From Gilvimarinus sp. 2_MG-2023 (lineage in GTDB: Bacteria > Pseudomonadota > Gammaproteobacteria > Pseudomonadales > Cellvibrionaceae): a stretch of 64,000 nucleotides of DNA. Both the position numbers and the translations under genes were made by a program. Position 1 is the first letter of the stretch. The number at the start of each line of letters is the position of its first letter. Location of the stretch: the NCBI RefSeq assembly GCF_030547685.1, contig NZ_JAUOQM010000020.1:36399-100398 (forward strand), in the 5' to 3' direction. The notes below the pieces were generated by a model. It made no database searches. It saw nothing but the letters and a program-made list of their open reading frames with translations, and was not told the DNA's origin. This document shows, in pieces, positions 44,877 through 58,945 of this stretch.

Positions 44877-45737
44877 CTAAGGGCAGGCCATCTTGGTGCC
44901 ATCGCACATAAAGGACTCCAAGCCCTCATCAGTCTCTTCACTGTACGCGGGTGACTGCATGCGCACGATGGCTTCCGCAAACAACACAAAGCCCTCATTG
45001 TTAGCCGCGCGATCGCCACACAGTTGCTCGTAACTAGCCGTCACCCCCGCTGCCGCATTTACTTCGGCGCGGTTCGCATCGGCAAAGCGTGGATCGTTAA
45101 CGGTGTGGTGCTCATGGTAGCTGCCTGGATCTTTGCTGTTATTCAATTCGCTCAAATTACCAATGATTTTATTCACTAACGGCACCATCAGCTTGTAACA
45201 ATACTGCACTCTGATTTTCAGTAGATTAGCATCTTGTATGCTGGCGCCATCCACCTCCCAGGTTGGTCGGTACATCAAATTATCATTGGGTATAGCGACA
45301 TTGTCATCAGTGCTTTCACCAAAGCCGGATAACTCCAGCATCGCACTGGTGGGATTGATGCGTATGATGCGCGTATAAGTATCGACTTCTGACACTGCAT
45401 CACGCCGGGTGCCTGCACTGTCTACACCTGCCTCTATGTCATCGCGCATATTGCCCAAGGAACTGGAGTTAGTAAACAACGGAGCCATGCCCCGAACTAA
45501 GCCGCGGCGCAATGCACTGTAAGTAGCGTGATTGGTAGCCCCTACTCTGGCGGCCTGAAAGGTTGCGTAATTAAGCGTTGTTTTGGCTGAATAAATAAAA
45601 GCTATCTGAATAGCACCAAATATCAGCAGTAAAAGCACGGGAATGATGATGACAAACTCGATCATTGCCTGACCGCGGTTTTTATCTTTATGTACCCGTG
45701 TGAAATTATTCACGCTGAGCATCCACTGGGGCGACAT
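44877..45737 (-). CDS. TadE-like pseudopilin
   Basis: A 286-residue protein with a type IVb prepilin-like N-terminus: basic leader, RG/QAMIEF with Glu at +5, then a hydrophobic helix (VIIIPVLLLLIFGAIQIAF). Like TadE, the remainder is a periplasmic domain with several cysteines. An ATG five codons in (45722) is an alternative start. It is the last gene of the Tad operon and overlaps the TPR gene before it. Confidence 0.82.
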   Translation of the reverse strand: MSPQWMLSVNNFTRVHKDKNRGQAMIEFVIIIPVLLLLIFGAIQIAFIYSAKTTLNYATFQAARVGATNHATYSALRRGLVRGMAPLFTNSSSLGNMRDDIEAGVDSAGTRRDAVSEVDTYTRIIRINPTSAMLELSGFGESTDDNVAIPNDNLMYRPTWEVDGASIQDANLLKIRVQYCYKLMVPLVNKIIGNLSELNNSKDPGSYHEHHTVNDPRFADANRAEVNAAAGVTASYEQLCGDRAANNEGFVLFAEAIVRMQSPAYSEETDEGLESFMCDGTKMACP

Positions 45738-46275
45738 CGGTAGCTTTCACTCTCGGAGGCTCAGTGTCTGACACCTCGGGCTCTACTCCTTGTGGTTGCA
45801 CAGCTTTTGTGTTTCCACCTTGCGATTCAGCGGTGGCTGAACGACCAGAGGGAAATGGCTCTAGTACTGCGTCCACTATTTTTTGTACTCGCTGGGCCTT
45901 AGGATCCGTTTTAGGAACCTGTTCATACATACTAGCCACAGTCTGCGACAGTATTTGCGACTGAACATAAGCCAAGTTAATCCAGGCACTGGCATAGGTC
46001 TCGTCTATGGCCAATGCCGTTTGATAAGCAAGCACGGCGTCGCTATAAGCCCCCATTTGCGCGTGACAGTTACCCAATCGCAGCCAAGAGCGAGTGCTTA
46101 ACGGTAATTGCTCAACTAAGCGCCGGTACTTGGGCAACGCGTGTGAAAATTCACCTTGTTGGTATAAACGCTCGGCAGACTCCTGTAATTCAAAGACCGC
46201 TTTGGCTTTGTCATCACCGACACTTACGCAGCCACACAGCATCGTGAGCACCAGAATCATTAACAATATTCGCAT
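45706..46275 (-). CDS. TPR lipoprotein, TadD-like
   Basis: A 189-residue protein with lipobox LCGC (Cys at about 15) and at least two TPR repeats (RLYQQGEFSHALPKY; LGNCHAQMGAYSDAVLAYQTAL). TadD-type TPR lipoproteins help secretin assembly in Tad pilus systems. Overlaps the DUF192 gene before it (16 bases) and the TadE-like gene after it. Confidence 0.8.
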   Translation of the reverse strand: MRILLMILVLTMLCGCVSVGDDKAKAVFELQESAERLYQQGEFSHALPKYRRLVEQLPLSTRSWLRLGNCHAQMGAYSDAVLAYQTALAIDETYASAWINLAYVQSQILSQTVASMYEQVPKTDPKAQRVQKIVDAVLEPFPSGRSATAESQGGNTKAVQPQGVEPEVSDTEPPRVKATDVAPVDAQRE

Positions 46276-46610
46276 TTATCTCCCACCTGTAACCGCAAAG
46301 CTTGTATTTCGCCGGCAGCAAACTCGACAACACAAGCTGCACCAGGGCACACTCTGAAGCGCCAAGGCTTCAAGCTTGACGCCAACTTGACGACAACGCC
46401 ACCACGATCCAAAAAGACGACATCAATCGCGTACCCCATAAAACACGTATGCACCGATGAGCAGGGCTTAATTTTTAATGCTGTGCCTCTGGCTGGCGCG
46501 GGTCGTCCCAGCAAACCACGCAGACGCAACCAGTAGCTATCAGCTAAACCAACACGGGTATAACCTAGTGCTTCTTCCTGGCGCGACCAGCGCACATTTT
46601 TTTCAATCAA
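46260..46610 (-). CDS. DUF192 family protein
   Basis: A 116-residue protein with the DUF192 core: RLRGLLGRPA, LKIKPCSSVHTCFMGYAIDVVFLD in two pieces, LKPWR and FAAGEIQALRLQVGD. DUF192 proteins recur in Tad loci, but their function is unknown. No signal peptide is apparent. Start overlaps tadC stop by 4 bases. Confidence 0.85.
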   Translation of the reverse strand: MIEKNVRWSRQEEALGYTRVGLADSYWLRLRGLLGRPAPARGTALKIKPCSSVHTCFMGYAIDVVFLDRGGVVVKLASSLKPWRFRVCPGAACVVEFAAGEIQALRLQVGDKCEYC

Positions 46611-47491
46611 AATGTTCCCTGCTCGATATATTTCACCACAATAGGGAATAAAAGAATAATAAACGTCAACGGGAAGATAAAAATAACCAGAGGAATTACC
46701 AGTTTAACCGGCGCTTCCATTGCCATTTTTTCCGCGCGTTGAAAGCGTTCATTTAGTCGGGTTTTGGCCTGAATGAGCAGAGTGTTTTTCATGCTGGAGC
46801 CCATCTTTTCCGCCTGGACTACCGCTCGAACAAATACTGAAATATCTTTCAAATCAACCCGATCCGCCAAACGATTTAGGGCATCTCCCCGAGTTTGGCC
46901 CGAGCTAATATCGCGCAACACAATGCGAAACTCGTTGCGCATAGCACCGCGCGGACCCTTTTCAACCGCTTGCTTCAAGGCACCGGCGAAGTTCAAGCCG
47001 GCATCCACACACATGGTTAAATACTCAAGGTAAACCGGCAGGGAGCGAATCAGTTCGCCATCGCGCTTGCGGCGTGTATCCTTTACCCACGCGATAGGCA
47101 CATAATACCCCCCCGCCGCGAGCAGGATTAGCAAGAGTGGATCAACACTGCCAGAGCTTGCCAATGCCATAAACCCCAACGCTGGCAGCAGCATCGCCAA
47201 AACAACACGAGCCGAAATATACTCTTCGGCTGTCACCATAAAACTGACGCCATTCTTTTGCAGCTGATTATCTACCTTAGTCAGATATGAGCTTGGCAGG
47301 TTGCTGCCTAGCACATAGGTAACCAGTTTAATCAACGGCCAAATAGGCCGCATAAAAGCCGGAGGCTCGTCCATATAGGAGCGCTCTTCATCGGCCAGCA
47401 TATAACTCAAAGAGGCGACCATATATATCGCGGCGATGACGCAACAAGCGACACTTAAGCCTGCCCCCAGCGCGACTAGATTATTCATCAT
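46607..47491 (-). CDS. tadC: Tad pilus inner-membrane protein TadC
   Basis: A 294-residue T2SSF-type membrane platform protein. The cytoplasmic domain has YLEYLTMCVDAGLNFAGALK and RDISSGQTRGDALNRLADR, and two terminal membrane helices follow (PLVIFIFPLTFIILLFPIV). It pairs with TadB upstream to hold the ATPase at the membrane. Confidence 0.88.
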   Translation of the reverse strand: MMNNLVALGAGLSVACCVIAAIYMVASLSYMLADEERSYMDEPPAFMRPIWPLIKLVTYVLGSNLPSSYLTKVDNQLQKNGVSFMVTAEEYISARVVLAMLLPALGFMALASSGSVDPLLLILLAAGGYYVPIAWVKDTRRKRDGELIRSLPVYLEYLTMCVDAGLNFAGALKQAVEKGPRGAMRNEFRIVLRDISSGQTRGDALNRLADRVDLKDISVFVRAVVQAEKMGSSMKNTLLIQAKTRLNERFQRAEKMAMEAPVKLVIPLVIFIFPLTFIILLFPIVVKYIEQGTF

Positions 47492-47497
47492 CTGCCC

Positions 47498-48370
47498 TCA
47501 GCTATCGATACTGGTTATTTTACGAATGAAGGTAAAGCCCATGATCTGCATAAAAACCATCACAGCTAACACCATAAGACCTTCGCGTGTCGTGTATAAC
47601 TTGCGCATAGCCTCGGGTTCAAGAAAGCTAAGCAATACAGCCAAGGCAATCGGCAACATGGCCATAAAAGTGCCCTGTGCGCGCCCCTGCGCGGTTAAAG
47701 AGTCGATTTTGCCTTCCATGGTTTTCTTCCGGCGCAGAGTTTCGGCCATACTTTGGATGGTTTCCACCAAATTACCACCGACCTCGCGGCTGATTCGAAT
47801 GGCAGAACTCGCCATAATAAAGCTCTGCAAGGGCAGACGCTTTTCCAACTCAATAAGGCTGTCTTCTAAGGTTACGCCAAGCTGCATTCGCTTTACCAAC
47901 AGGCCAAACTCCTGATTGGCCGGCGCTGGCGCCTGTTTAACCATGTCGGAAAGCGCCATATTCATGCTGGCACCTGCCTGCAGGCTGCTTGCCAGCATCA
48001 TAAAAATATCGGGCAATTGTTCTTCGAATTTTGCCAAGCGTTTTTTTCGCATTCGAGCCCAAATCCCACCGGGCACAATGAGTAACACCACGAAGACACC
48101 CGCGGTAATAACCCACAGTTGAAACAGCCAATGAACCCCCATAGGGATCAGAACGAGAGCTGCCATATTGATCATAAACAGCTGCGAGGTATCCATAAAA
48201 ATGAACATCTCGGCCAGCTCTTGATTGGCGTTTGAGGTGAACTTCCGGCGGTAGAAACTCATAAAGTCGCCGGCCTCACGCGTGACAGCCATGGCCAAGC
48301 ACATTGCGGTGACAAACACGAGAACAACCACCGCTGCCAAGGTCCCGATATCCGTTAAGCCGCCTATCAT
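47498..48370 (-). CDS. tadB: Tad pilus inner-membrane protein TadB
   Basis: A 290-residue T2SSF-type protein, with LPDIFMMLASSLQAGASM, REVGGNLVETIQSMAETLRRKK, and a C-terminal membrane helix pair. Its start overlaps the tadA stop by 4 bases. Confidence 0.88.
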   Translation of the reverse strand: MIGGLTDIGTLAAVVVLVFVTAMCLAMAVTREAGDFMSFYRRKFTSNANQELAEMFIFMDTSQLFMINMAALVLIPMGVHWLFQLWVITAGVFVVLLIVPGGIWARMRKKRLAKFEEQLPDIFMMLASSLQAGASMNMALSDMVKQAPAPANQEFGLLVKRMQLGVTLEDSLIELEKRLPLQSFIMASSAIRISREVGGNLVETIQSMAETLRRKKTMEGKIDSLTAQGRAQGTFMAMLPIALAVLLSFLEPEAMRKLYTTREGLMVLAVMVFMQIMGFTFIRKITSIDS

Positions 48371-50043
48371 GATTTGAAAATACTCATATCGATTTCCACA
48401 CCCCGACTGCGCAGCTCTTCATAGAAAGTCGGCACCATACCAGTGGCCTCAAAGTGCCCCTCTACGCGCCCATCACTGTCAAACCCCGTTTGCTTGTAAC
48501 GGAAGATATCCGTCAGCTGAATGGTATTACTCTCAATGCCGGTGATCTCTGAAATACAGCTAACCCGGCGCGAGCCATCCCCGAAGCGGGTCTGCTGAAT
48601 CACAATATCCACCGCCGATGCGACCTGTTCGCGAATGGCACTCACGGGCAAATCCATGCCGGCCATCAGCACCATAACCTCAAGACGGCGCAACATATCG
48701 CGCGGTGAGTTGGCGTGTGCGGTGGTCAATGATCCATCGTGACCGGTGTTCATCGCCTGTAACATATCCAAAGCTTCACCACCTCGACACTCACCCACCA
48801 CAATACGATCGGGGCGCATACGCAGGCAGTTTTTAACCAAATCGCGAATAGTTACTTGTCCTTTGCCTTCCATGTTCGCCGGACGCGCTTCCAGTGACAC
48901 CACGTGAGGCTGAACCAAACGCAGCTCGGCTGCATCCTCGACTGTTACCACACGTTCTTCAACCGGAATAAAGTTAGATAAGATATTCAAAAGTGTTGTT
49001 TTACCCGAACCAGTACCCCCTGACACGACAATGTTAGAGCGTTGCTCCACACAGGTGCGCATAAAGGTCACCATGGCCTCATTGGTCGAGCCAAATCGAA
49101 TCAAATCGCGATCGGTAAGCTTTTGATCGGAAAATTTACGAATGGTAATACAAGGGCCGCGCAGTGCAAGTGGTGGGATAATGGCATTCACCCGTGAGCC
49201 GTCGCGCAAACGCGCATCCACCATAGGCGAGCTTTCATCAATACGCCGCCCCAAAGGGGAGACAATTCGTTCGATGGTTGCCATAACAGCTTCGTCACTG
49301 GTAAAAGACACAGGGGATTTAATCAAACGACCAGATTTTTCAATGTAGATGTCATTAAAGGCATTAACCATTACCTCGGTCACGTCTGAGTCATCCAGCA
49401 GTTGTTCGAGCGCACCCAGGCCAACCGTTTCATCGAGCACAATCTTTTTCAAACGCTCACGATCAATGCCCGGTGGTAACTTGTGACCCACAGTTTGCAA
49501 AACGGTGTCGATTAAGCCGCCGAGCTCACTGCGCATTTGCTCGTGATCAAGCGTATCGGTCTGCATGCGCTTAAGGTCCATCTGGCGCACCAGCTCTTTG
49601 TGCACATACTTGGCCCAGACCATATAATCATCGCGCAGTTTGTCACTTTGCTCTACTGCAGTGGCAACTGAGCCTGATTGGCCAGCAGCTTGAGCCTCAT
49701 CGCTGTCGGTTTTTAACTCGGCAACAAGACTTTCGGCTTCCTGGTCCGGGCTGTGGTCGACAATAGCGGCCTTAAAGCCGCCAAACTCGATTTCGTCATT
49801 GCTTGAAAGCGGGCCGTAGCGCTCGATGGTTTCCCCATTGACGCTAACCCCAGCACCGCGGCTGACATCCACCACGAAAACTCCGGCCAGCTCTTTTTCA
49901 AAACGCAAGTGCTTGGGCGCGACCTTCCAGCCACGCACACGCAAAATCACATCTCTTGAGCGACCAATTTCGCAAGAGTCGGCACCGCATCTTACGGCCT
50001 CTTGCCATTTACCATCTTTACTGCTAACGGTTATCTCAAACAC
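48367..50043 (-). CDS. tadA: FHA domain-TadA ATPase fusion
   Basis: The secretion/assembly ATPase of the Tad pilus. The first 95 residues form an FHA domain (CEIGRSRD, GRSxD and PKHL, SVNG), which reads phosphothreonine in other proteins. After an acidic linker comes the CpaF/VirB11-type ATPase: Walker A GGTGSGKT (342-349), [20 protein letters not shown], and [15 protein letters not shown]. The fusion is unlike the classical operon. The gene directly follows the secretin, where TadZ normally stands. Confidence 0.92.
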
Positions 50044-50051
50044 AGGTCACC

Positions 50052-51374
50052 TTAATCTATTAAGCCAGTACGCATATATTCTTCATGCTCTTCGACGTAC
50101 TCATCGACACGGTCTAACACCTTCTGATTGGGACCGCTTTTCAAGTCATCGAGAATGTGTGGCGTTAAGAAAATCACCATCTCTGTTTCACCACCTGTAA
50201 AACTTTTTGACTGAAATAACTTTCCTAAAATAGGAATATCCGCCAGCCATTTCACTTTATTTAGAGTCGCTTGTTCATCCCGTGTAATAAGGCCGGACAA
50301 GACTAAAGTTTCCCCTTCTTTTAATTTAATATCATTGCTTGTCGCGCGTTTTTTAAAAGCTGGTTGACCATCCACAGCCTGTGCCAGGTCGAGTTGACTG
50401 ATCGCAACATCAACGCGAGCGGTGATATTGCCATATAAGTCGATTTTGGGCTGCAAACCCAGCATAACGCCATACTCTTTATATTCAACACTGCTGCCAC
50501 TCAGCGAGCTGGTAATAACAGGCACTTCGCCCCCCACAGTCAGCTCAGCCTCACCACCACTGCGCGCACTTAGCCTAGGCGATGACAAAACCAGTGCCGA
50601 ACCGGTCTGCTCTAGCAAGTCAATCATTGACGTTATTTCTGAGGCGATACCAAATAGCACTCCGCGCGTGCCGGTTTCATACATATAACCGGCTGGTAAG
50701 TCTTCTTCCGACCACTGAGTAATTGCAGCTCCAGCGGCCCGCCAAGTATTGCCATAACGCAGGCTCGGACCAGAGAAGCTTTTTTGCCAATTAATGCCCA
50801 ACTCTTCGGTTTTGCTGCGATCAAACTCGGCAATTTGCACATCAAAGAAAATCATTTTCTGCTCAAACTCGCCGAGAATACGAGCCATCACAATCAGGTC
50901 ACCGTACATACTCTGCACGATCTCAACTTTTTCCATATCGCGTTGATCGATCACACCATCAATGATGGTGTGGCGTCCCGCACTTTTAATCTTTATGCCG
51001 GGAATATCGCCCAATAACTCTTTAACTTCACTCAACTCAAGTCGACTACTGTTGACTTGAACCACAGTGAGCGCCATAGACTCGCGACTGCCGTCGGCAA
51101 ACCACACCTGCATATTGGTTTCACCCACACTGTTTGCCGTTAAGACTATCTCACCACTTTTTAGCAGTGTTGAGTCCACCAGCGAAGTCGTACCGACAGA
51201 CATTCGCACTATATTGGAGGCCTCTATAACACGCGACTCTCCGACAGACAGCGTAAGTGACTCCGGCAGAACATTGGCCTGCGCATTAAGCGCCAACAAC
51301 AGTGCCAAAAAGGTCCCCACCCAAACTCGAATATTCATAACTGTATAATCCATTGTTTTCATTGTTAGACTCAT
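50052..51374 (-). CDS. rcpA: Tad secretin RcpA/CpaC
   Basis: A 440-residue outer-membrane secretin. The longest reading starts MSLTMKTMDY; a signal peptide follows (VGTFLALLLALNAQA), then a BON-like/pilus N-domain (SLTLSVGESRVI; VQVNSSRLELSEVKELLGDIPGI) and the secretin domain with VLSSPRLSARSGGEAEL and TVGGEVPVIT. It forms the pore for the pilus. The ATG at the third Met may be the true start. Confidence 0.9.
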   Translation of the reverse strand: MSLTMKTMDYTVMNIRVWVGTFLALLLALNAQANVLPESLTLSVGESRVIEASNIVRMSVGTTSLVDSTLLKSGEIVLTANSVGETNMQVWFADGSRESMALTVVQVNSSRLELSEVKELLGDIPGIKIKSAGRHTIIDGVIDQRDMEKVEIVQSMYGDLIVMARILGEFEQKMIFFDVQIAEFDRSKTEELGINWQKSFSGPSLRYGNTWRAAGAAITQWSEEDLPAGYMYETGTRGVLFGIASEITSMIDLLEQTGSALVLSSPRLSARSGGEAELTVGGEVPVITSSLSGSSVEYKEYGVMLGLQPKIDLYGNITARVDVAISQLDLAQAVDGQPAFKKRATSNDIKLKEGETLVLSGLITRDEQATLNKVKWLADIPILGKLFQSKSFTGGETEMVIFLTPHILDDLKSGPNQKVLDRVDEYVEEHEEYMRTGLID

Positions 51375-51379
51375 CGCTC

Positions 51380-53749
51380 TTACTGCAAGCGAACACGACG
51401 TACAGTAACGATACCCTCTTCGCCCGTGCCGCCCGGTATAAATTCGATGTAGTCCACATCGCGAGTCACTTTTGCCGCATTGTCGGCACGCATTTGGCTG
51501 GCAACATCACGCCGGCTTTCGGTCGTCACTGTGACACCAGAAGCAATTATATTGCCATCGGCATCAATAACCTGACCGTCAACCACCTGGCCCACAACGT
51601 TGCCCTCGGCATCCACCACCTGTCCATCGACAATGCGACCAATAATGTTGCCATCTGCGTCGCGTACAACTTGGGTTTGCTCATCCAGCTCTTGACCATC
51701 GGCTCCTAACACTGCCGTTTCGACAGTGCCAAGTATTTGCCCGTCCATACCAATCGCCGTCCCATCTGCGTTAACACGCCCGACAATATTGCCATCCGCA
51801 TCTACCACGGCTTTTTCCACTGTACCCAATATCTCGCCATCGGTTCCGGTAACTGAACCATCAGCATTTACCTTTCCAATCACATTGCCTTCTGTATCCA
51901 CGACCTGGCCGTTAACAACACGACCGATAATATTGCCGTCCGCATCGCGCACAACTTCTTCAACTTTACCAATGATATTTCCGCTGGCATCGCGCACTAC
52001 TTCGGCCACTTCGCCCATGACATTGCCCTGGCTATCAACCATGACTTTCTCTGCGCTGCCCAGTACGGCGCCATCCAAACCAACAGCTTTACCATTTTCA
52101 TCGACTAGTCCAATCACATTGCCGTCGGCGTCCAGTACGGCTTTTTCAACCTTACCGAGTATTTTTCCATCGGTGCCGGTAACCGAGCCGTCGGCATTAA
52201 CTTTGCCGATCACTTTGCCGTTTTCATCGACGAGCTGGCCGTTGACTACCCGTCCAATGACATTGCCATCAGCATCTCGCACCACCTCTTGCACATCCCC
52301 AATTACGCGACCACTGGAATCCCTCACAACTTCTTTCACTTTACCGACAACATTGCCGTTTCTATCCACAACAGCTTCTTCCACTGTACCGAGAGCTTCC
52401 CCGTTCAAACCAATCGCATTGCCACTATCGTCTACGCGGCCAATCACGCGGCCAGTTTTATCGACAATTTTTCCATCGACCACACGGCCAATCACGTTGC
52501 CATCTTTATCTCGCACGACCTGAGTCACTTCAGAGCGGCCCTGCGGCACGGTGGAGTTGCGCAAATCAACAACATTGCCCTTGGCATCGAGAGCAACGTT
52601 TTTCTGGACAGTGCCGATCTCTTCACCATTCAGGCCAATCGCGCGACCACTTTCATCCACACGCCCAATGACGTTACCGTCGCGATCCAGAATTTGGCCA
52701 TCTACAACTTTCCCAATAACATTGCCGTTGGCATCCCGCACAACATCTGCCCGCTCGCGCACACGCAGCATGGGGTCGTCTTCACTCACATTTTCGACAA
52801 TGCTACCCAAGGATTTACCATCAAACCCAACAGCCTTACCATCCACTACCTTGCCGATAATATTGCCATTGGCATCGACAACATTGTCACCAATGATCCG
52901 CCCTATAGGGTTGCCGTTTTCATCTAAAACTACATCGACCACAGGTTCGGGCTCAGGATCAAGCAGTACGTCAGCGCGAATATAGTCGTATTCCGCCATA
53001 CTGGTATCCTTGGGGTGACGCAATACGGCGAACACACTGCCTGTTTTTTCGGCCAACTGTACACGCGCCACCTGACGCGGCGTTAAACTAAGGGTAATAA
53101 TGGTGAATTCCATATTGAATCCATCCACCGAGTTTTGTTGGCGCGAGCGCTCATAACGGCGCCCAGTGTAATCCTCGCGGCCCGCCGACAAAACAATGAC
53201 ACTCTCCAGTACCGGCATGACCACCTGATTCACATCTTGTACACCACCACTAAAGCCCAGATCCTCTAAATCGAACTCGCCCATCAAATCAATGGTGTCA
53301 CCCGGTCTTAACAGGCCGTCAAAGGAGTCAATTTTGTTGACCTTAACGCTGAATGCACGACGCCCCAGATCCAAATTCTCAGAGAATGTTTCTGCCTTGG
53401 TGCCGGTAATGGCGTCCATGGTCATAATGCGTCCCGCTTTCATGGGCGAGGCAATGGTCCGATTCAAGATTTTTTTATATTCGGATGCGGGAACAAAGTT
53501 CGAGGGAAGGAACTTGGTAGGAACCATGAGCTTACCAATAGCATCCACGGTAATACTGTCGCCCTTATTGAGATTGCGCTTGGGAACGACCACAGCAATA
53601 GTTCTTACCTGTTCAGGTTGGTTAGCCTTACGATACCGCTCTTCAACTGATTTTAAGTAATACACGGTCAAAAAGGCAGCCACTACACCGCAGACCACGG
53701 CAATCATAAAGAGGCGAGAGCCAGACATTTGTTTCATTGTTTTCCCCAA
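51380..53749 (-). CDS. RcpC/CpaB pilus assembly protein with a giant tandem-repeat insertion
   Basis: The N-terminal 270 residues are normal for RcpC/CpaB: membrane anchor (8-28), SAF domain (VPKRNLNKGDSITVDAI, about 50-110) and RcpC domain (LRPGDTIDLMGEF; SLTPRQVARVQLAEKTG). From about residue 275 to 745 the protein consists of about 28 units of the form VVxDxDGNVIGRVVDG or GxDGxxLGTV, then a short C-terminus (TRDVDYIEFIPGG). Family members are about 250-350 residues, so this one is more than twice as long. The repeats are acidic and glycine-rich and could bind Ca2+ or form a beta-solenoid. Between the pilin-like gene and the secretin. Confidence 0.88.
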   Translation of the reverse strand: MGKTMKQMSGSRLFMIAVVCGVVAAFLTVYYLKSVEERYRKANQPEQVRTIAVVVPKRNLNKGDSITVDAIGKLMVPTKFLPSNFVPASEYKKILNRTIASPMKAGRIMTMDAITGTKAETFSENLDLGRRAFSVKVNKIDSFDGLLRPGDTIDLMGEFDLEDLGFSGGVQDVNQVVMPVLESVIVLSAGREDYTGRRYERSRQQNSVDGFNMEFTIITLSLTPRQVARVQLAEKTGSVFAVLRHPKDTSMAEYDYIRADVLLDPEPEPVVDVVLDENGNPIGRIIGDNVVDANGNIIGKVVDGKAVGFDGKSLGSIVENVSEDDPMLRVRERADVVRDANGNVIGKVVDGQILDRDGNVIGRVDESGRAIGLNGEEIGTVQKNVALDAKGNVVDLRNSTVPQGRSEVTQVVRDKDGNVIGRVVDGKIVDKTGRVIGRVDDSGNAIGLNGEALGTVEEAVVDRNGNVVGKVKEVVRDSSGRVIGDVQEVVRDADGNVIGRVVNGQLVDENGKVIGKVNADGSVTGTDGKILGKVEKAVLDADGNVIGLVDENGKAVGLDGAVLGSAEKVMVDSQGNVMGEVAEVVRDASGNIIGKVEEVVRDADGNIIGRVVNGQVVDTEGNVIGKVNADGSVTGTDGEILGTVEKAVVDADGNIVGRVNADGTAIGMDGQILGTVETAVLGADGQELDEQTQVVRDADGNIIGRIVDGQVVDAEGNVVGQVVDGQVIDADGNIIASGVTVTTESRRDVASQMRADNAAKVTRDVDYIEFIPGGTGEEGIVTVRRVRLQ
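51530..52930 (-). repeat. About 1.4 kb of coding tandem repeats in the RcpC gene
   Basis: About 28 degenerate units of 14-20 codons (DxDGNVIGRV alternating with LDGxxLGTV) grouped in higher-order blocks of about 60 codons. Two blocks (near 51780-51920 and 52130-52270) are nearly identical in protein sequence, with INGQVVD, VIGKVNADGSVTGTDG shared. This points to recent duplication and possible length variation. Confidence 0.85.
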
Positions 53750-53816: not shown

Positions 53817-54863
53817 TTATGGTTCGCTGATTACCCGGTTAGACGGGCAGTCATTAGGAGAGGAAGGCTCTCCATTAATGTACACCTGCTCGGTATAATG
53901 TTCATTGTCGAGCGAGCCGATCCAAGTAGATTCATCTTGGTTGGGCTCAAATAAAAGCTCCATCTGAGCTGCGTAAAACTCATCGTCACTCAGGTCTTCA
54001 TCAATACCGCTATCCCAGCCAGCGGCCATTACTGCGCAAAAAGAAGCACCCCCCAAATCGAAGTAAACCACTTCGCCATCGGGCTCCATTACGCCAGTAT
54101 CAATTGAGGTATCCGGTGTAGTGGAAAAAGCATAATAGTGTCCGTCTATAATCCGACCGTCATCGCTCCCCCCATCACGATCCACCATCTTGTATGCCGC
54201 TTCGGTGCAATACCCATCTACATCCATTTCGTTAAATTGCAGCGAGTCGTAAAATTTTCCGTCTGCCTTACTCTCGTACCCAAAACCATACACTTGAGGT
54301 GGGTCGCCACAATCGGTTATCGCTTCGCGCTGCAAAACATTGCCATCCGCATCTACCACCACATCTTGTAGGTAGGCATCGGTGGTGCTGCCGTCAGCGG
54401 CTTCGTAAGTGCCCGTATCGTCGTCATAGGTACCGACTACCTCACCATTATTGGTAACCAAACCGGTGGATGGGTCGAGCTCACCGTGGTTGTTAAAGCC
54501 ACCGTTGGAAGAGACAATCGTGGTTTGCGAGATTGCTGCGGTTGGCTCACCCCCATTATCGCCGCCACCAGTACTGCCTCCACCGCTGTCATCGCCACCG
54601 CCATCGTCATCTCCACCGCCACCACCTTCAGAGACTTCGTAATCAGTGGCATATTCATGAACCGCAGCGATAGAGGCAGAATAACCATCGTAATTATCGT
54701 GCATTACCGTCAGCAAGTACTCAATACAATCCTCGTACTGATCGGGACAGGCACCGCGATTAGCCACCAATAGTCCCCCAACCAGCGCGGCCATCACCAC
54801 GGTGTATTCAGCCATAGATTGACCCAGTTGACGCCATAATTTGGATCGTTTGGGACTGGTCAT
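53817..54863 (-). CDS. Pilin-like protein with Gly/Asp-rich linker and large C-terminal domain
   Basis: From ATG 54863 (an ATG at 54884 is an alternative) the product is 348 residues. The N-terminus is a type IVb prepilin (LG/QSMAEY then a hydrophobic helix). Next are about 55 residues of pilin-sized ectodomain, a low-complexity glycine, aspartate and serine stretch (EGGGGGDDDGGGDDSGGG), and a 215-residue domain with several cysteines. That domain contains VVVDADGNVLQ, the same motif as the RcpC repeats. It may be a tip or adhesin-like minor pilin. Not recognised as a named family. Confidence 0.7.
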   Translation of the reverse strand: MTSPKRSKLWRQLGQSMAEYTVVMAALVGGLLVANRGACPDQYEDCIEYLLTVMHDNYDGYSASIAAVHEYATDYEVSEGGGGGDDDGGGDDSGGGSTGGGDNGGEPTAAISQTTIVSSNGGFNNHGELDPSTGLVTNNGEVVGTYDDDTGTYEAADGSTTDAYLQDVVVDADGNVLQREAITDCGDPPQVYGFGYESKADGKFYDSLQFNEMDVDGYCTEAAYKMVDRDGGSDDGRIIDGHYYAFSTTPDTSIDTGVMEPDGEVVYFDLGGASFCAVMAAGWDSGIDEDLSDDEFYAAQMELLFEPNQDESTWIGSLDNEHYTEQVYINGEPSSPNDCPSNRVISEP

Positions 54864-54864
54864 A

Positions 54865-55533
54865 TCAGTTGATTTCAACCTCATTGACTAGAATTTGCGT
54901 GGCATCACCCGCGGGCATAATGACAATATTATTCTCGTCCGTACCTTTGCGAAATACTAATACCACCCCACCTCGTTCCGCGAAATGCTGGTCCAAACCC
55001 CAACCATCAACGGTCATCTCCGTTTGGTAAAAGCTCGCCACCTCAGACACAGTTTGCTCGCTGCTAATCACCGTTACCCGCCCCTCTTTCGGACCGTCAT
55101 TGGTGAGCAAATCAGACACCACAACACCGTCTGAGGGCTTCACCACCCCCTGGCCCAAAGGGGCATTAGACTCACCACTAGGGACCACGCTGATCAACAG
55201 ACGGCCAAAGGCATTCCCTCCAGCTTCGCCATATTGCACCGTGAAGAAACACTCATCTGCTAAGGTGCCTATCTGTTGCCAAGGGCCAAAGCGACTTTCA
55301 GAAAAGGCATCTTCCCAACGTCGACGATAAAAACCTGCCACTTCTTCTCCCGAAACATTGGCACTAAATGAGCGCACCGTCATAGGCCGAGAGTTGTATT
55401 GGGCATCATTCAGTAGACCGCTCACTTTCATTTCTGACATAGTTGGAAAGTCGGTGAAGTCACAACTTGCCCAACCCAGTGGGGATACTGTAATAAGCCA
55501 ACAAACGCAGAGACGCTTAGTGATTTCAATCAT
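54865..55533 (-). CDS. Exported protein of unknown function in the Tad operon
   Basis: About 222 residues from ATG 55533 (longer form from 55557). A signal peptide (core LCVCWLITVSPLGWA) is followed by two related halves: SGEEVAGFYRRRWEDAF and TVSEVASFYQTEMTVDGW, each followed by a beta-rich stretch ending in FxTVQYG or VFRKG. I do not recognise the family. Its place between pseudopilin genes suggests a periplasmic assembly or minor structural role. Confidence 0.65.
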   Translation of the reverse strand: MIEITKRLCVCWLITVSPLGWASCDFTDFPTMSEMKVSGLLNDAQYNSRPMTVRSFSANVSGEEVAGFYRRRWEDAFSESRFGPWQQIGTLADECFFTVQYGEAGGNAFGRLLISVVPSGESNAPLGQGVVKPSDGVVVSDLLTNDGPKEGRVTVISSEQTVSEVASFYQTEMTVDGWGLDQHFAERGGVVLVFRKGTDENNIVIMPAGDATQILVNEVEIN

Positions 55534-56524
55534 TGTAGTAGCAGTGTCCGTCGTCACAGGTTACGTCTTCAGCGGGCATTGGCTCGACCCCCATTTCACC
55601 AAAATCCAAACGATAGATGGCGCTTTGCGAAGGGCCCGCCTCCAGAATACTGGCCGCCGTTTTAAGTACATCAAACAGAGCGTTATCAAACACGGTAGAG
55701 GGAACGAAATTATCGACCCGGTCGGCATAGTAGCCTACACTTTGAGCATTCCAGCCATCAGCCAAAATAGCTGAGTTGGAAACAAACCGGCCATCCCACT
55801 GCTGAAAAATAGCATCTTCAATACCACCGCCCCAATCACCATCATTGAGGTCCCACTCACCATTACCGCCGCCTTTAGCATTGCCGGTATTAAGAGAAGT
55901 GCGCACACTGGGTTTATAGTAACCGTTTAAATTATAGTCGAGCTGTAACAAATCAGGGTTGTCGCCGCCGATAGCGTTTAGCATAAATTCAATCGGTGTT
56001 GTGATGGCGCCCAATCCTGTTTCCAAATAATCGAGCACATCATAAGCGACACTGGGTGTATCTCTCTCGTTTAGATCGAGCACTTCCACTTGCCCCAACA
56101 TTTCCTGCCGGGACTGATGGTAGGTCCAAACAGGACTCTCAGACCCAGCCGTACCGGGGCCGGTTACATCGCTAGAGCTGATCGGCACTATTTCGGCCCG
56201 CCCCTGACCGTAAAAAAAACGTGAGGCAACCGAGTTCTCCAGCTCCGTGTCGCTGCGTAAAGCAACGCTTTCAAACTCGTCTGAGCTGATGACGAAGTCT
56301 TCCGTGTTAGTGGTAGACGTTGCGTTCCAGGCGTTCATATCCTTCAGCCAGACGGTTCGCTCCCAGGCAGCATAGCGAGAGGCCTGTTGGTTTTTCATTT
56401 TAATATCAATGATTTTGCCGAAGGTGGGCACAATGACAAACAGCACCATAAAAATAAACGCCACGCTGACCACGAACTCTGTCATGGCCTGTCCGTGCTG
56501 GCGCGTCGAGGCCGGAGCAATCAT
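55526..56524 (-). CDS. TadE/TadF-like pseudopilin
   Basis: A 332-residue protein with a short prepilin leader, HG/QAMTEF (Glu at +5) and a hydrophobic helix (VVSVAFIFMVLFVIVPTF), then a large exported domain. Begins with an ATGA overlap with the TadG-like gene upstream and ends overlapping the next gene. Probably a minor pseudopilin of the Tad apparatus. Confidence 0.75.
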   Translation of the reverse strand: MIAPASTRQHGQAMTEFVVSVAFIFMVLFVIVPTFGKIIDIKMKNQQASRYAAWERTVWLKDMNAWNATSTTNTEDFVISSDEFESVALRSDTELENSVASRFFYGQGRAEIVPISSSDVTGPGTAGSESPVWTYHQSRQEMLGQVEVLDLNERDTPSVAYDVLDYLETGLGAITTPIEFMLNAIGGDNPDLLQLDYNLNGYYKPSVRTSLNTGNAKGGGNGEWDLNDGDWGGGIEDAIFQQWDGRFVSNSAILADGWNAQSVGYYADRVDNFVPSTVFDNALFDVLKTAASILEAGPSQSAIYRLDFGEMGVEPMPAEDVTCDDGHCYYND

Positions 56525-58656
56525 GGCATAAACTCCTCTAACTCCTCGACGATTTCATCAACAGCGATGTCTTTTACTTGAGTGGCACCATCGCGAATTG
56601 GCCCTTCAATCAAGCTGCCCCACGGCGGGTCAATTTGTTCCACCAAGTAATCCACACCGGTATCTACCAGACGATCACCGATGGCACGTAAGAGCCAATC
56701 CACCATGCCGATGGCGGTATCACTGATCCCCTCAAACATATCTTCAAAATCTATTTCACCGGTAGCCAATAAAATAGCAATAGCACTGGGCTCGCGCAGG
56801 CGCGCATCCCAAAACGGACTGAATAAGCTCGCGGGCTCAGCACTGCCATCACTTAAGCTTTGCATGGGGTTGGCAAAATAGGTCTCGGCGGAGCTGACGG
56901 TCATCATCGGCCGATCATCATTCCAAATGACTTGTTGGTAGTTGGCGGCAAAATCGTTGCCTTCGGCACGAGATCGGGTCTGTACATCAAAGTTTGTGTA
57001 CTGAATCGCTCCGCTATCCCAATCGGCATCATTTGAGTCGATATTTAAATTATCGTTATCACTGGTCTGTACATCGTCGAGGCTTTTTGCCAGAGCGGTT
57101 GTAAATTCATAACTCACCCCAGACTCCTGAAAACTCCCCCCTAAACTAAAGAAGGAGGGAGGACCGGCGTAGCTGTCTGTAACATCTAACGAGGTACGTG
57201 CACCGTACATACCCGGCAGCAATGTCGGCGAGGCCTGCCCCCAAGCCAAAGTTTGCATATGGAAGCCATCTAAGGCGCCATTGTTATCCGAGTCATCCGG
57301 ATCGCCGCCGAATTTACCCGTGTCATTATTAAAAGGCAGCCCCCAGTCGGTTAAAATCTTTTTCGCATGGGAGTTTTGCGCAACGACCTGATGGGTTGCC
57401 CCCGCCAGAGGAAAACCTATCGGCAACACGAAATTAAAGTCGAGTAACACCCAAGAGTTACAGCCCACGATAGGCAGGCATAATTCAATCTCAACATACA
57501 AGCCGATATCAAACTCTAAACCAAAGGAGAGTACATCGATAGCCGACCAGTTGATTTTGGCAATATCCTCATCGGTCTCAATGGCGGAGTTAGACATATA
57601 AACCGAGCCGCCATCGTTTTTAAAACCGCCGCCGACGGAAAAGTCTAAATCAATGGTTAAGGTCACAATCCCGAGCGGCAGAGTGATTTCTGGAATAATA
57701 TCGGGGATAGTCGCCCACAGCTGCCAGTGGCGATCTTCCGTAAAGCTGGCCCGGTTGCGATTCACAATCGCCATATAGCGCTGGTAGGCCTCCACCGCAT
57801 TGGCTTCGGCCTGATCACCGGTATTGACGTTGGAGTTGGCCCCGCCACTGCTATTCTTACTTTTTTTCTTGGACAACCCCGGACTGTTGTCATTGATCAT
57901 ATTTTCCAGCTCTCCGACCTGATCGCCGAGAAAATCTCGGGTCAGATCGGTCGCATCAGCTGACCAGTCTTGATCAGCCGTTGCATCCCCCACCAAGTCG
58001 GCTAAATTGGTGGGGCTAAAATTTTCCCCAAAATACGTTAACAACGCATTCTGCGTAAAAAAATACCACCCGATAACAGGTATATACATCTCAGGGTTAT
58101 CGGGGTCATCCTCGTGGTCTTCCACCACCCCCATGCCCACTTCCACCTGAGCCGCCAAGGTGGCTAAAGCAAACATTTTTTGAAACACGCCAAGCGTGCT
58201 ATTAAAGTAGGAGACCACCGTGGGCCAGACCTCTACCATCGGCTTAGCTGCCGCTGAAACAGTTTCCCCCATTATCCGATACGGCGTGGTCACCGCATTT
58301 AAAACATCGGCAAAAGTGGTAGGAGAAGGTGGAGCAACGGGAAACCGGTAAAGCGGGTAACTGGTAAATGAGCCTACTTGTTTGTAGTGTTTGGCCCAAG
58401 AGAGTAAGGACACCATCTGACCGATGGAGACTTCGTTAGCCACCATGGCACGGTTAGTATAGGCGGCAAAGTTTTGATTGCGGGCCGCAAGCTTGGCCTG
58501 CGAATATACGGTTGCGTCAGCTGCATTTTCCAGCTGAATACGATTGGTCACCAGCTGACCCTGGTTGTACAGGATTAGCAGCGCCATAACAACGACAGCA
58601 AGAAAGAGCAGGCCAAAAATAAAGGCCTGCCCTTTATCCGATCTGATGGAGTTCAT
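56521..58656 (-). CDS. TadG-like protein
   Basis: A 711-residue protein with one N-terminal membrane helix (FIFGLLFLAVVVMALLILY) after a short cytoplasmic KGQAF, then the sequence NAADATVYSQAKLAARNQNF and AYTNRAMVANEVSIGQM, typical of TadG-type Flp pilus proteins. The remaining 600 residues are exported, with low-complexity stretches (KKKSKNSSGG) and Asp-rich segments. No Glu at +5, so it is probably not processed as a pilin. First large gene after the pilin. Confidence 0.72.
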   Translation of the reverse strand: MNSIRSDKGQAFIFGLLFLAVVVMALLILYNQGQLVTNRIQLENAADATVYSQAKLAARNQNFAAYTNRAMVANEVSIGQMVSLLSWAKHYKQVGSFTSYPLYRFPVAPPSPTTFADVLNAVTTPYRIMGETVSAAAKPMVEVWPTVVSYFNSTLGVFQKMFALATLAAQVEVGMGVVEDHEDDPDNPEMYIPVIGWYFFTQNALLTYFGENFSPTNLADLVGDATADQDWSADATDLTRDFLGDQVGELENMINDNSPGLSKKKSKNSSGGANSNVNTGDQAEANAVEAYQRYMAIVNRNRASFTEDRHWQLWATIPDIIPEITLPLGIVTLTIDLDFSVGGGFKNDGGSVYMSNSAIETDEDIAKINWSAIDVLSFGLEFDIGLYVEIELCLPIVGCNSWVLLDFNFVLPIGFPLAGATHQVVAQNSHAKKILTDWGLPFNNDTGKFGGDPDDSDNNGALDGFHMQTLAWGQASPTLLPGMYGARTSLDVTDSYAGPPSFFSLGGSFQESGVSYEFTTALAKSLDDVQTSDNDNLNIDSNDADWDSGAIQYTNFDVQTRSRAEGNDFAANYQQVIWNDDRPMMTVSSAETYFANPMQSLSDGSAEPASLFSPFWDARLREPSAIAILLATGEIDFEDMFEGISDTAIGMVDWLLRAIGDRLVDTGVDYLVEQIDPPWGSLIEGPIRDGATQVKDIAVDEIVEELEEFMP

Positions 58657-58690: not shown

Positions 58691-58945
58691 TCAGGTATCG
58701 TCTTGCTGGAAGTCATCCAGGCCGTAGTCGGCATCCTGCTCAGCCGCTGCCGCGTCACCACGGCCGGTAGTGTCATTGGTACTGTCACTACCACCCAACT
58801 CTTGAGCCATATTCCCCACCTGGCCACGAACAGTGTCACCAAACAGGTTGTAAACTGTAATGGCTGCAATAGCGATCAGCGCCACGATAATGATGTACTC
58901 GGTCATGCCCTGGCCGAGCTGCTTTATTTTTTGTTGCATTTTCAT
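58691..58945 (-). CDS. flp: Flp-type major pilin
   Basis: An 84-residue type IVb prepilin. The leader MKMQQKIKQLG is followed by QGMTEY (Glu at +5) and a hydrophobic helix IIIVALIAIAAITVYNLF. The mature tail is acidic (DYGLDDFQQDDT). It is longer than most Flp pilins (50-70). First gene of the Tad operon, preceded by an AT-rich 190-base control region; ribosome site GGAG 8 bases ahead of the ATG. Confidence 0.88.
   Translation of the reverse strand: MKMQQKIKQLGQGMTEYIIIVALIAIAAITVYNLFGDTVRGQVGNMAQELGGSDSTNDTTGRGDAAAAEQDADYGLDDFQQDDT

Follow-up and report, generated by a model that had tools for sequence, protein, structure and literature searches.

The Tad alignment complex has had a published structure only since 2025 (PMC12307814). 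In the account given there, RcpC of Pseudomonas aeruginosa consists of a membrane helix, the domains D1 and D2, a linker (L3) and a C-terminal hairpin, and forms a dodecamer with a pore of ~5 nm; the hairpin is required for binding the N-domain of RcpA, and the L3 helix packs on the neighbouring D2 (PMC12307814). How the inner- and outer-membrane parts of the machine are joined is said to vary among species (PMC13170226). Here, we analysed the rcpC/cpaB gene of Gilvimarinus sp. 2_MG-2023 (genome size 3.76 Mb), located in a window of 64,000 nucleotides (the whole stretch of DNA that was analysed), whose product carries a long array of short beta-hairpin repeats between D2 and the C-terminal hairpin. 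All coordinates are positions in this window, all features listed lie on the minus strand and residue numbers of RcpC follow the TTG-started frame (P0001).

The listed open reading frame spans 51380–53749 and begins with TTG at 53749. Translation probably starts at the ATG at 53737, which has GGGGA just 5′ of it; the resulting coding sequence (51380..53737) encodes 785 aa, as many as the database copy has (P0002). The product contains a SAF domain corresponding to D1 (residues 52–112, 53414..53596; Pfam PF08666, 28.3 bits against a cut-off of 21) and an RcpC domain corresponding to D2 (residues 121–244, 53018..53389; PF16976, 58.1 bits against 28.8), and it matches the CpaB equivalog TIGR03177 (114.1 bits against 71). 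These matches identify it as the RcpC/CpaB protein of a Tad pilus. Upstream of D1, AlphaFold2 places a helix at residues 10–42 (53624..53722), a predicted inner-membrane anchor by homology to the P. aeruginosa protein (PMC12307814). At the other end, the motif YIEFIPGG...GIVTVRRVRL (residues 766–789, 51383..51454) forms a predicted secretin-binding hairpin; its strands are modelled with low confidence, and most RcpCs examined, long and short, have a similar motif at their C-terminus or close to it. The gene adjoins rcpA, the secretin gene (50052..51374; Pfam Secretin and T2SS-T3SS_pil_N). The full-length AlphaFold2 model reached a pLDDT of 72.8 and a pTM of 0.40, and its best PDB match in Foldseek was P. 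aeruginosa RcpC (9gzr), with which it shares SAF/D1, RcpC/D2 and the C-terminal hairpin. The P. aeruginosa protein differs in being only 303 aa long, with a short L3 linker and no repeats (PMC12307814).

The first-pass annotation had described about 28 short repeats spread over some 470 residues after the SAF and RcpC domains, and this description holds. The array covers residues 270–745 (51515..52942), and 28 hairpin tips were counted from the motif list between residues 279 and 732, spaced 15–17 residues apart save for two wider gaps of 26 and 31. Blocks of about 60 residues, as originally proposed, were not recovered; among lags of 5–259 residues, a period of 110 was the sole one with more than 25% self-identity. 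Three Pfam families exceed their cut-offs on the array, namely Bflower_2 (PF21785; E 8e-36, 122.7 bits against 38), Bflower (PF21784; E 3.8e-26, 92.2 bits against 25) and DUF3659 (PF12396; E 3.1e-24, 85.1 bits against 24.8, in 11 stretches). Given these E-values, the repeats are not a chance pattern. The tips carry the [DNEQ]xxG motif of beta-flowers, in line with the Pfam matches. Modelled separately with AlphaFold2, residues 466–690 were all-beta (pLDDT 91.5, pTM 0.71); comparison of this model by Foldseek and VIA-align yielded no convincing structural counterpart. Foldseek gave only weak matches to Rhs/YD repeat shells (E 2.8e-6, TM-scores 0.10–0.13), and the rcpC product also matched YD_repeat_2x at 26.2 bits, the cut-off for this family being low (15.8).

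Beta-flowers have been described as shallow barrels of 8, 10 or 12 strands, some of them lipoproteins (Durairaj et al. 2023, PMC10584680). Unlike the beta-flowers of that account, the array studied here is a long tandem inside a pilus-machine protein, and the terms 'Pilus' and 'CpaB' do not appear in the main text of PMC10584680. No description of a repeat-extended RcpC/CpaB was found in searches of the open-licence PMC library.

To define where the array lies within the protein, we measured the linker that separates D2 from the hairpin in 54 RcpCs. Its length is bimodal: 22–79 aa in 38 proteins and 126–567 aa in the remaining 16, all of which carry arrays, with the hairpin motif retained in long and short forms. 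The table of linkers and tree rows omits one duplicate (L041) and two proteins with unclear ends (L031 and L101); L089 lacks a hairpin within its frame, and in ten non-array rows the start of the hairpin was assigned manually. These measurements place the array, at the level of sequence, as an insertion at one fixed position, after the D2 ring domain and ahead of the predicted secretin-binding hairpin, a position that different repeat types occupy in different RcpCs. A D1–D2 tree with 55 rows has all 16 array RcpCs on the same side of one branch, with weak support (81/52; 84% of bootstrap trees), and none of 500 shuffles was equally clustered. The array RcpCs span nine family-level groups of the tree.

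It had been stated initially that known RcpCs lack such repeats, which proved too broad. Every homologue among the matches listed (120 of 326, the query's own included) combined RcpC with beta-flower repeats, in a search that scored the 7994 candidates with most shared words and was biased toward repeats because the query itself contains them. In the family sample, RcpC was found in 14 of 81 genomes; five of these carry beta-flower repeats, two carry another DG-rich type (DGTVxTxDG..) and seven lack an array, including two genomes of the same genus with RcpCs of 324 aa. RcpC is encoded by 45 of the 321 genomes of the class sample, and ten of the 45, our own included, have an array at the same place; three genomes of this sample (G147, G313 and G371) are represented by partial sequence, with frames of 130, 257 and 269 aa that leave no room for an array unless they are truncated. 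Within the class sample, our own genome was the only one with a PF21785 match in RcpC, and the DUF3659 cut-off was reached by five of the ten other array proteins scanned in the family and class samples. In the phylum sample, RcpC occurs in 166 of 398 genomes, and at least three of these, among the best-scoring matches listed, have arrays (our own, G755 and G770), RcpC frames listed from outside the class being at most 393 aa long. Arrays are thus confined to a minority of RcpC homologues in the class and phylum samples. Taken together, array-bearing proteins constitute a long-standing minority subfamily of RcpC.

The age of the array can be judged from its DNA. Near-identical blocks had been taken to indicate recent expansion; however, the best pair of 30-residue repeats, identical at 27 of 30 positions (90%) in protein, is only 74% identical in DNA and uses the same codon at 11 of the 27 shared residues, and Tandem Repeats Finder reported no array within the rcpC gene. 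On these grounds the expansion is old rather than recent. An assembly artefact, also raised at the outset, is unlikely, since the seven closest relatives in the database (P0003–P0009) include six of nearly the same length (776–786 aa, 78–85% identity), the seventh measuring 832 aa; the nearest named relatives belong to Gilvimarinus, including G. algae (P0009). Among orthologues, that of genome G066 aligns colinearly, with an unchanging offset, over nearly the whole array, that of G036 differs by a single shift of ~47 residues and that of G075 by more. Lengths of 739, 785 and 832 aa among relatives, in steps of 46–47 residues, suggest that about three units are gained or lost at once.

The array is also associated with the gene next to rcpC, which encodes a minor-pilin-like protein of 355 aa (53817..54884) with the class III motif GQSMAEY and a C-terminal extension of ~300 residues. 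The motif is close to the prepilin-peptidase consensus G/A-X4-F/E as quoted in PMC12607857. We compared the corresponding pilins of related loci (L019–L028, L105–L117 and L189–L207), counting residues after the motif glycine; the non-array set comprises the 15 related loci with upstream DNA fetched, of 39 non-array rows, and the pilins of L197, L198 and L206, in which the motif is degenerate, were assigned by position. Among the 15 non-array loci examined, the pilin ranges from 41 to 79 aa; in 17 of the 18 array loci it reaches 106–404 aa. A mature length of at least 100 aa accordingly separates 17/18 array loci from 0/15 non-array loci (Fisher p 1.5e-8), and array and pilin lengths are correlated over the 33 loci (Spearman rho 0.79), both statistics ignoring common descent. 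Array loci likewise have the larger TadG-like frames, measured stop to stop (15 against 15 loci, p 1.9e-4), with L197 and L200 as non-array exceptions. When a profile of the array unit was searched against 1840 locus frames, the top matches were the five array RcpCs that had contributed to it, followed by minor pilins from L195 (E 1.7e-6), L196 (E 0.0081) and L028 (E 0.048); the window's own minor pilin gave no match. This suggests that a few hairpins resembling the array units of RcpC are present in the pilin extensions of L195, L196 and L028.

Domain order, repeat family, place of insertion, the retained hairpin and the co-occurrence with extended minor pilins are all features of the sequences themselves. 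To account for them, we propose that the stretch of ~500 residues with its 28 repeats, replacing the linker between D2 and the hairpin, forms an enlarged periplasmic cage around the path of the pilus, with room for an enlarged minor pilin, which it would also hold; we regard this reading as having about an even chance of being correct. The grouping of the array RcpCs on the tree and their FHA-bearing TadA, the larger TadG-like frames and the related repeats of DotG-like proteins (see below) also speak in its favour. By analogy with P. aeruginosa, twelve RcpC subunits would form a ring and their C-terminal hairpins would bind the secretin. The twelve arrays would then encircle the space that separates the ring from the secretin. 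They would either span this space or loop out alongside it, and the enlarged cage would give room to the extended minor pilin before its passage through the secretin. The arrays may in addition contact the pilin extension.

Several observations weigh against the cage. Within the 18 array loci, the correlation between array and pilin length is only moderate (rho 0.58), and the locus with the shortest array (L106, linker of 126 aa) has a minor pilin of 65 aa. Array and extended pilin may have been co-inherited in one or two events, in which case the p-values overstate independence, and the clustering of array RcpCs on the D1–D2 tree is itself weakly supported, as its branch values indicate. On the structural side, the pTM of the full-length model is low. 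The same model contains a helix at residues 746–760, between the array and the C-terminal hairpin, that may be equivalent to the L3 helix packing on the neighbouring D2, so that the array would loop out instead of bridging.

The cage has its counterpart in a broader reading, in which beta-flower arrays are an exchangeable periplasmic module. The twelve-array RcpC cage, co-evolved with the C-terminal domain of the minor pilin and built of the same hairpins, would receive or template the pilin ahead of the secretin, and DotG would use such arrays likewise at a matching place. We hold this only tentatively and think it rather doubtful. The comparison stems from five class genomes with several PF21785 matches and no RcpC match, four of which were fetched (L209, L210, L211 and L212). 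In L209, L210 and L211, the repeat protein matches DotG/IcmE (E-values of about 1e-100, below the model's curated cut-off), ends in a TrbI/VirB10 domain and scores 87–137 bits with PF21785; its repeats follow an N-terminal hydrophobic segment and precede the TrbI/VirB10 domain. The neighbouring genes in L209 exceed the cut-offs of the DotI and DotH models, and a DotF model is matched below its cut-off. The repeat protein of L212 looks like those of L209–L211, the three covered by the family scan. These DotG/IcmE-like proteins of type IVB secretion loci share flower-type repeats with the window's RcpC, in their case between the anchor and the VirB10-like domain; unlike RcpC, DotG/IcmE belongs to an unrelated machine and its flanking domains are unrelated. 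In Legionella pneumophila, DotG/IcmE has 30-bp repeats (PMC2639597), termed penta-peptide repeats in a later account in which tomography is said to place them in the stalk (PMC7511231). The repeat-extended RcpCs would also provide beta-flowers, for which we met no tested function, with a defined molecular setting that is shared with an unrelated secretion machine.

Ligand binding would assign the arrays a different task, namely binding peptidoglycan, lipid or Ca2+ and thereby anchoring the machine in the wall or sensing the wall. Evans et al. propose RcpC as the component most likely to recruit wall enzymes (PMC12307814), and the 475 residues of the array include 83 acidic against 46 basic ones. 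The ten Pfam families listed at E<=10, however, include no wall-binding family and no Ca2+-binding family, such as RTX, EF-hand or thrombospondin type 3, which leaves the Ca2+-binding solenoid of the first-pass annotation without a family match. A single aromatic residue and no cysteine occur in the 475 residues, a composition from which choline- or sugar-binding repeats differ. We consider a binding role of this kind unlikely.

A plain spacer, in which the array stretches the distance from ring to secretin across a thicker periplasm, appears less likely still. It agrees with the array following the ring domain and preceding the predicted secretin-binding hairpin, and the earlier proposal of a rigid spacer between inner membrane and secretin is supported to this extent, the position by sequence and a spacer or scaffold role by inference. 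Genome G755, however, contains two Tad loci, each with secretin, TadA, TadB and TadC matches, of which one (L179/L195) encodes an array RcpC with a 422-aa linker and the other (L208) an RcpC of 268 aa. Both systems share one periplasm, so a wide periplasm cannot explain the array there, and the two same-genus genomes with short RcpCs point in the same direction. Neutral or weakly selected growth of the linker, by which repeats expanded in one subfamily as flexible filler only, would fit the variety of repeat types found at the same place and the 46–47-residue length steps, but is similarly improbable given the nine family-level groups in which arrays occur, the many repeat positions invariant in 43 homologues, chiefly at both array ends, and the lack of fresh tandem repeats in rcpC DNA.

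In this minority subfamily, a linker of ~20–80 residues has been swapped at one place for up to ~570 residues of repeats, which constitutes a natural test of the role of the linker. The cage reading, through its link to the minor pilin, further predicts that array and pilin extension act together.

The remainder of the Tad locus surrounds these genes on both sides. Next to rcpA lies tadA/cpaF, encoding a motor ATPase with an N-terminal FHA domain (48367..50043; Pfam T2SSE and FHA). FHA-bearing TadA was found in all 16 array loci of the tree, as well as in G755 and G770, and in 11 of the 34 non-array loci where TadA was seen; FHA was called by phmmer with the N-terminus of the window's TadA as query, so that absences may be misses. 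The tadA/cpaF gene is followed by two open reading frames recurring in related loci, which, from gene order, we take to be tadB (47498..48370) and tadC (46607..47491). A DUF192 protein (46260..46610; PF02643), located between tadC and a TPR gene, recurs in related Tad loci, and is followed by a tadD-like TPR protein (45706..46275; Pfam TPR) and a tadE-like protein (44877..45737; PF07811). On the other side, beyond the minor pilin, are a pilin-like protein with the motif GQAMTEF (55526..56524), a tadG-like protein of 711 aa (56521..58656; PF13400) and a small pilin, GQGMTEYIIIVALIAIAAI..., with 73 aa in its mature form (58691..58939), which is likely the major pilin. A conserved hypothetical protein of 230 aa (54865..55557), which had no Pfam match at E<=0.1, recurs in related loci and is conserved in this Tad subtype both with and without arrays.
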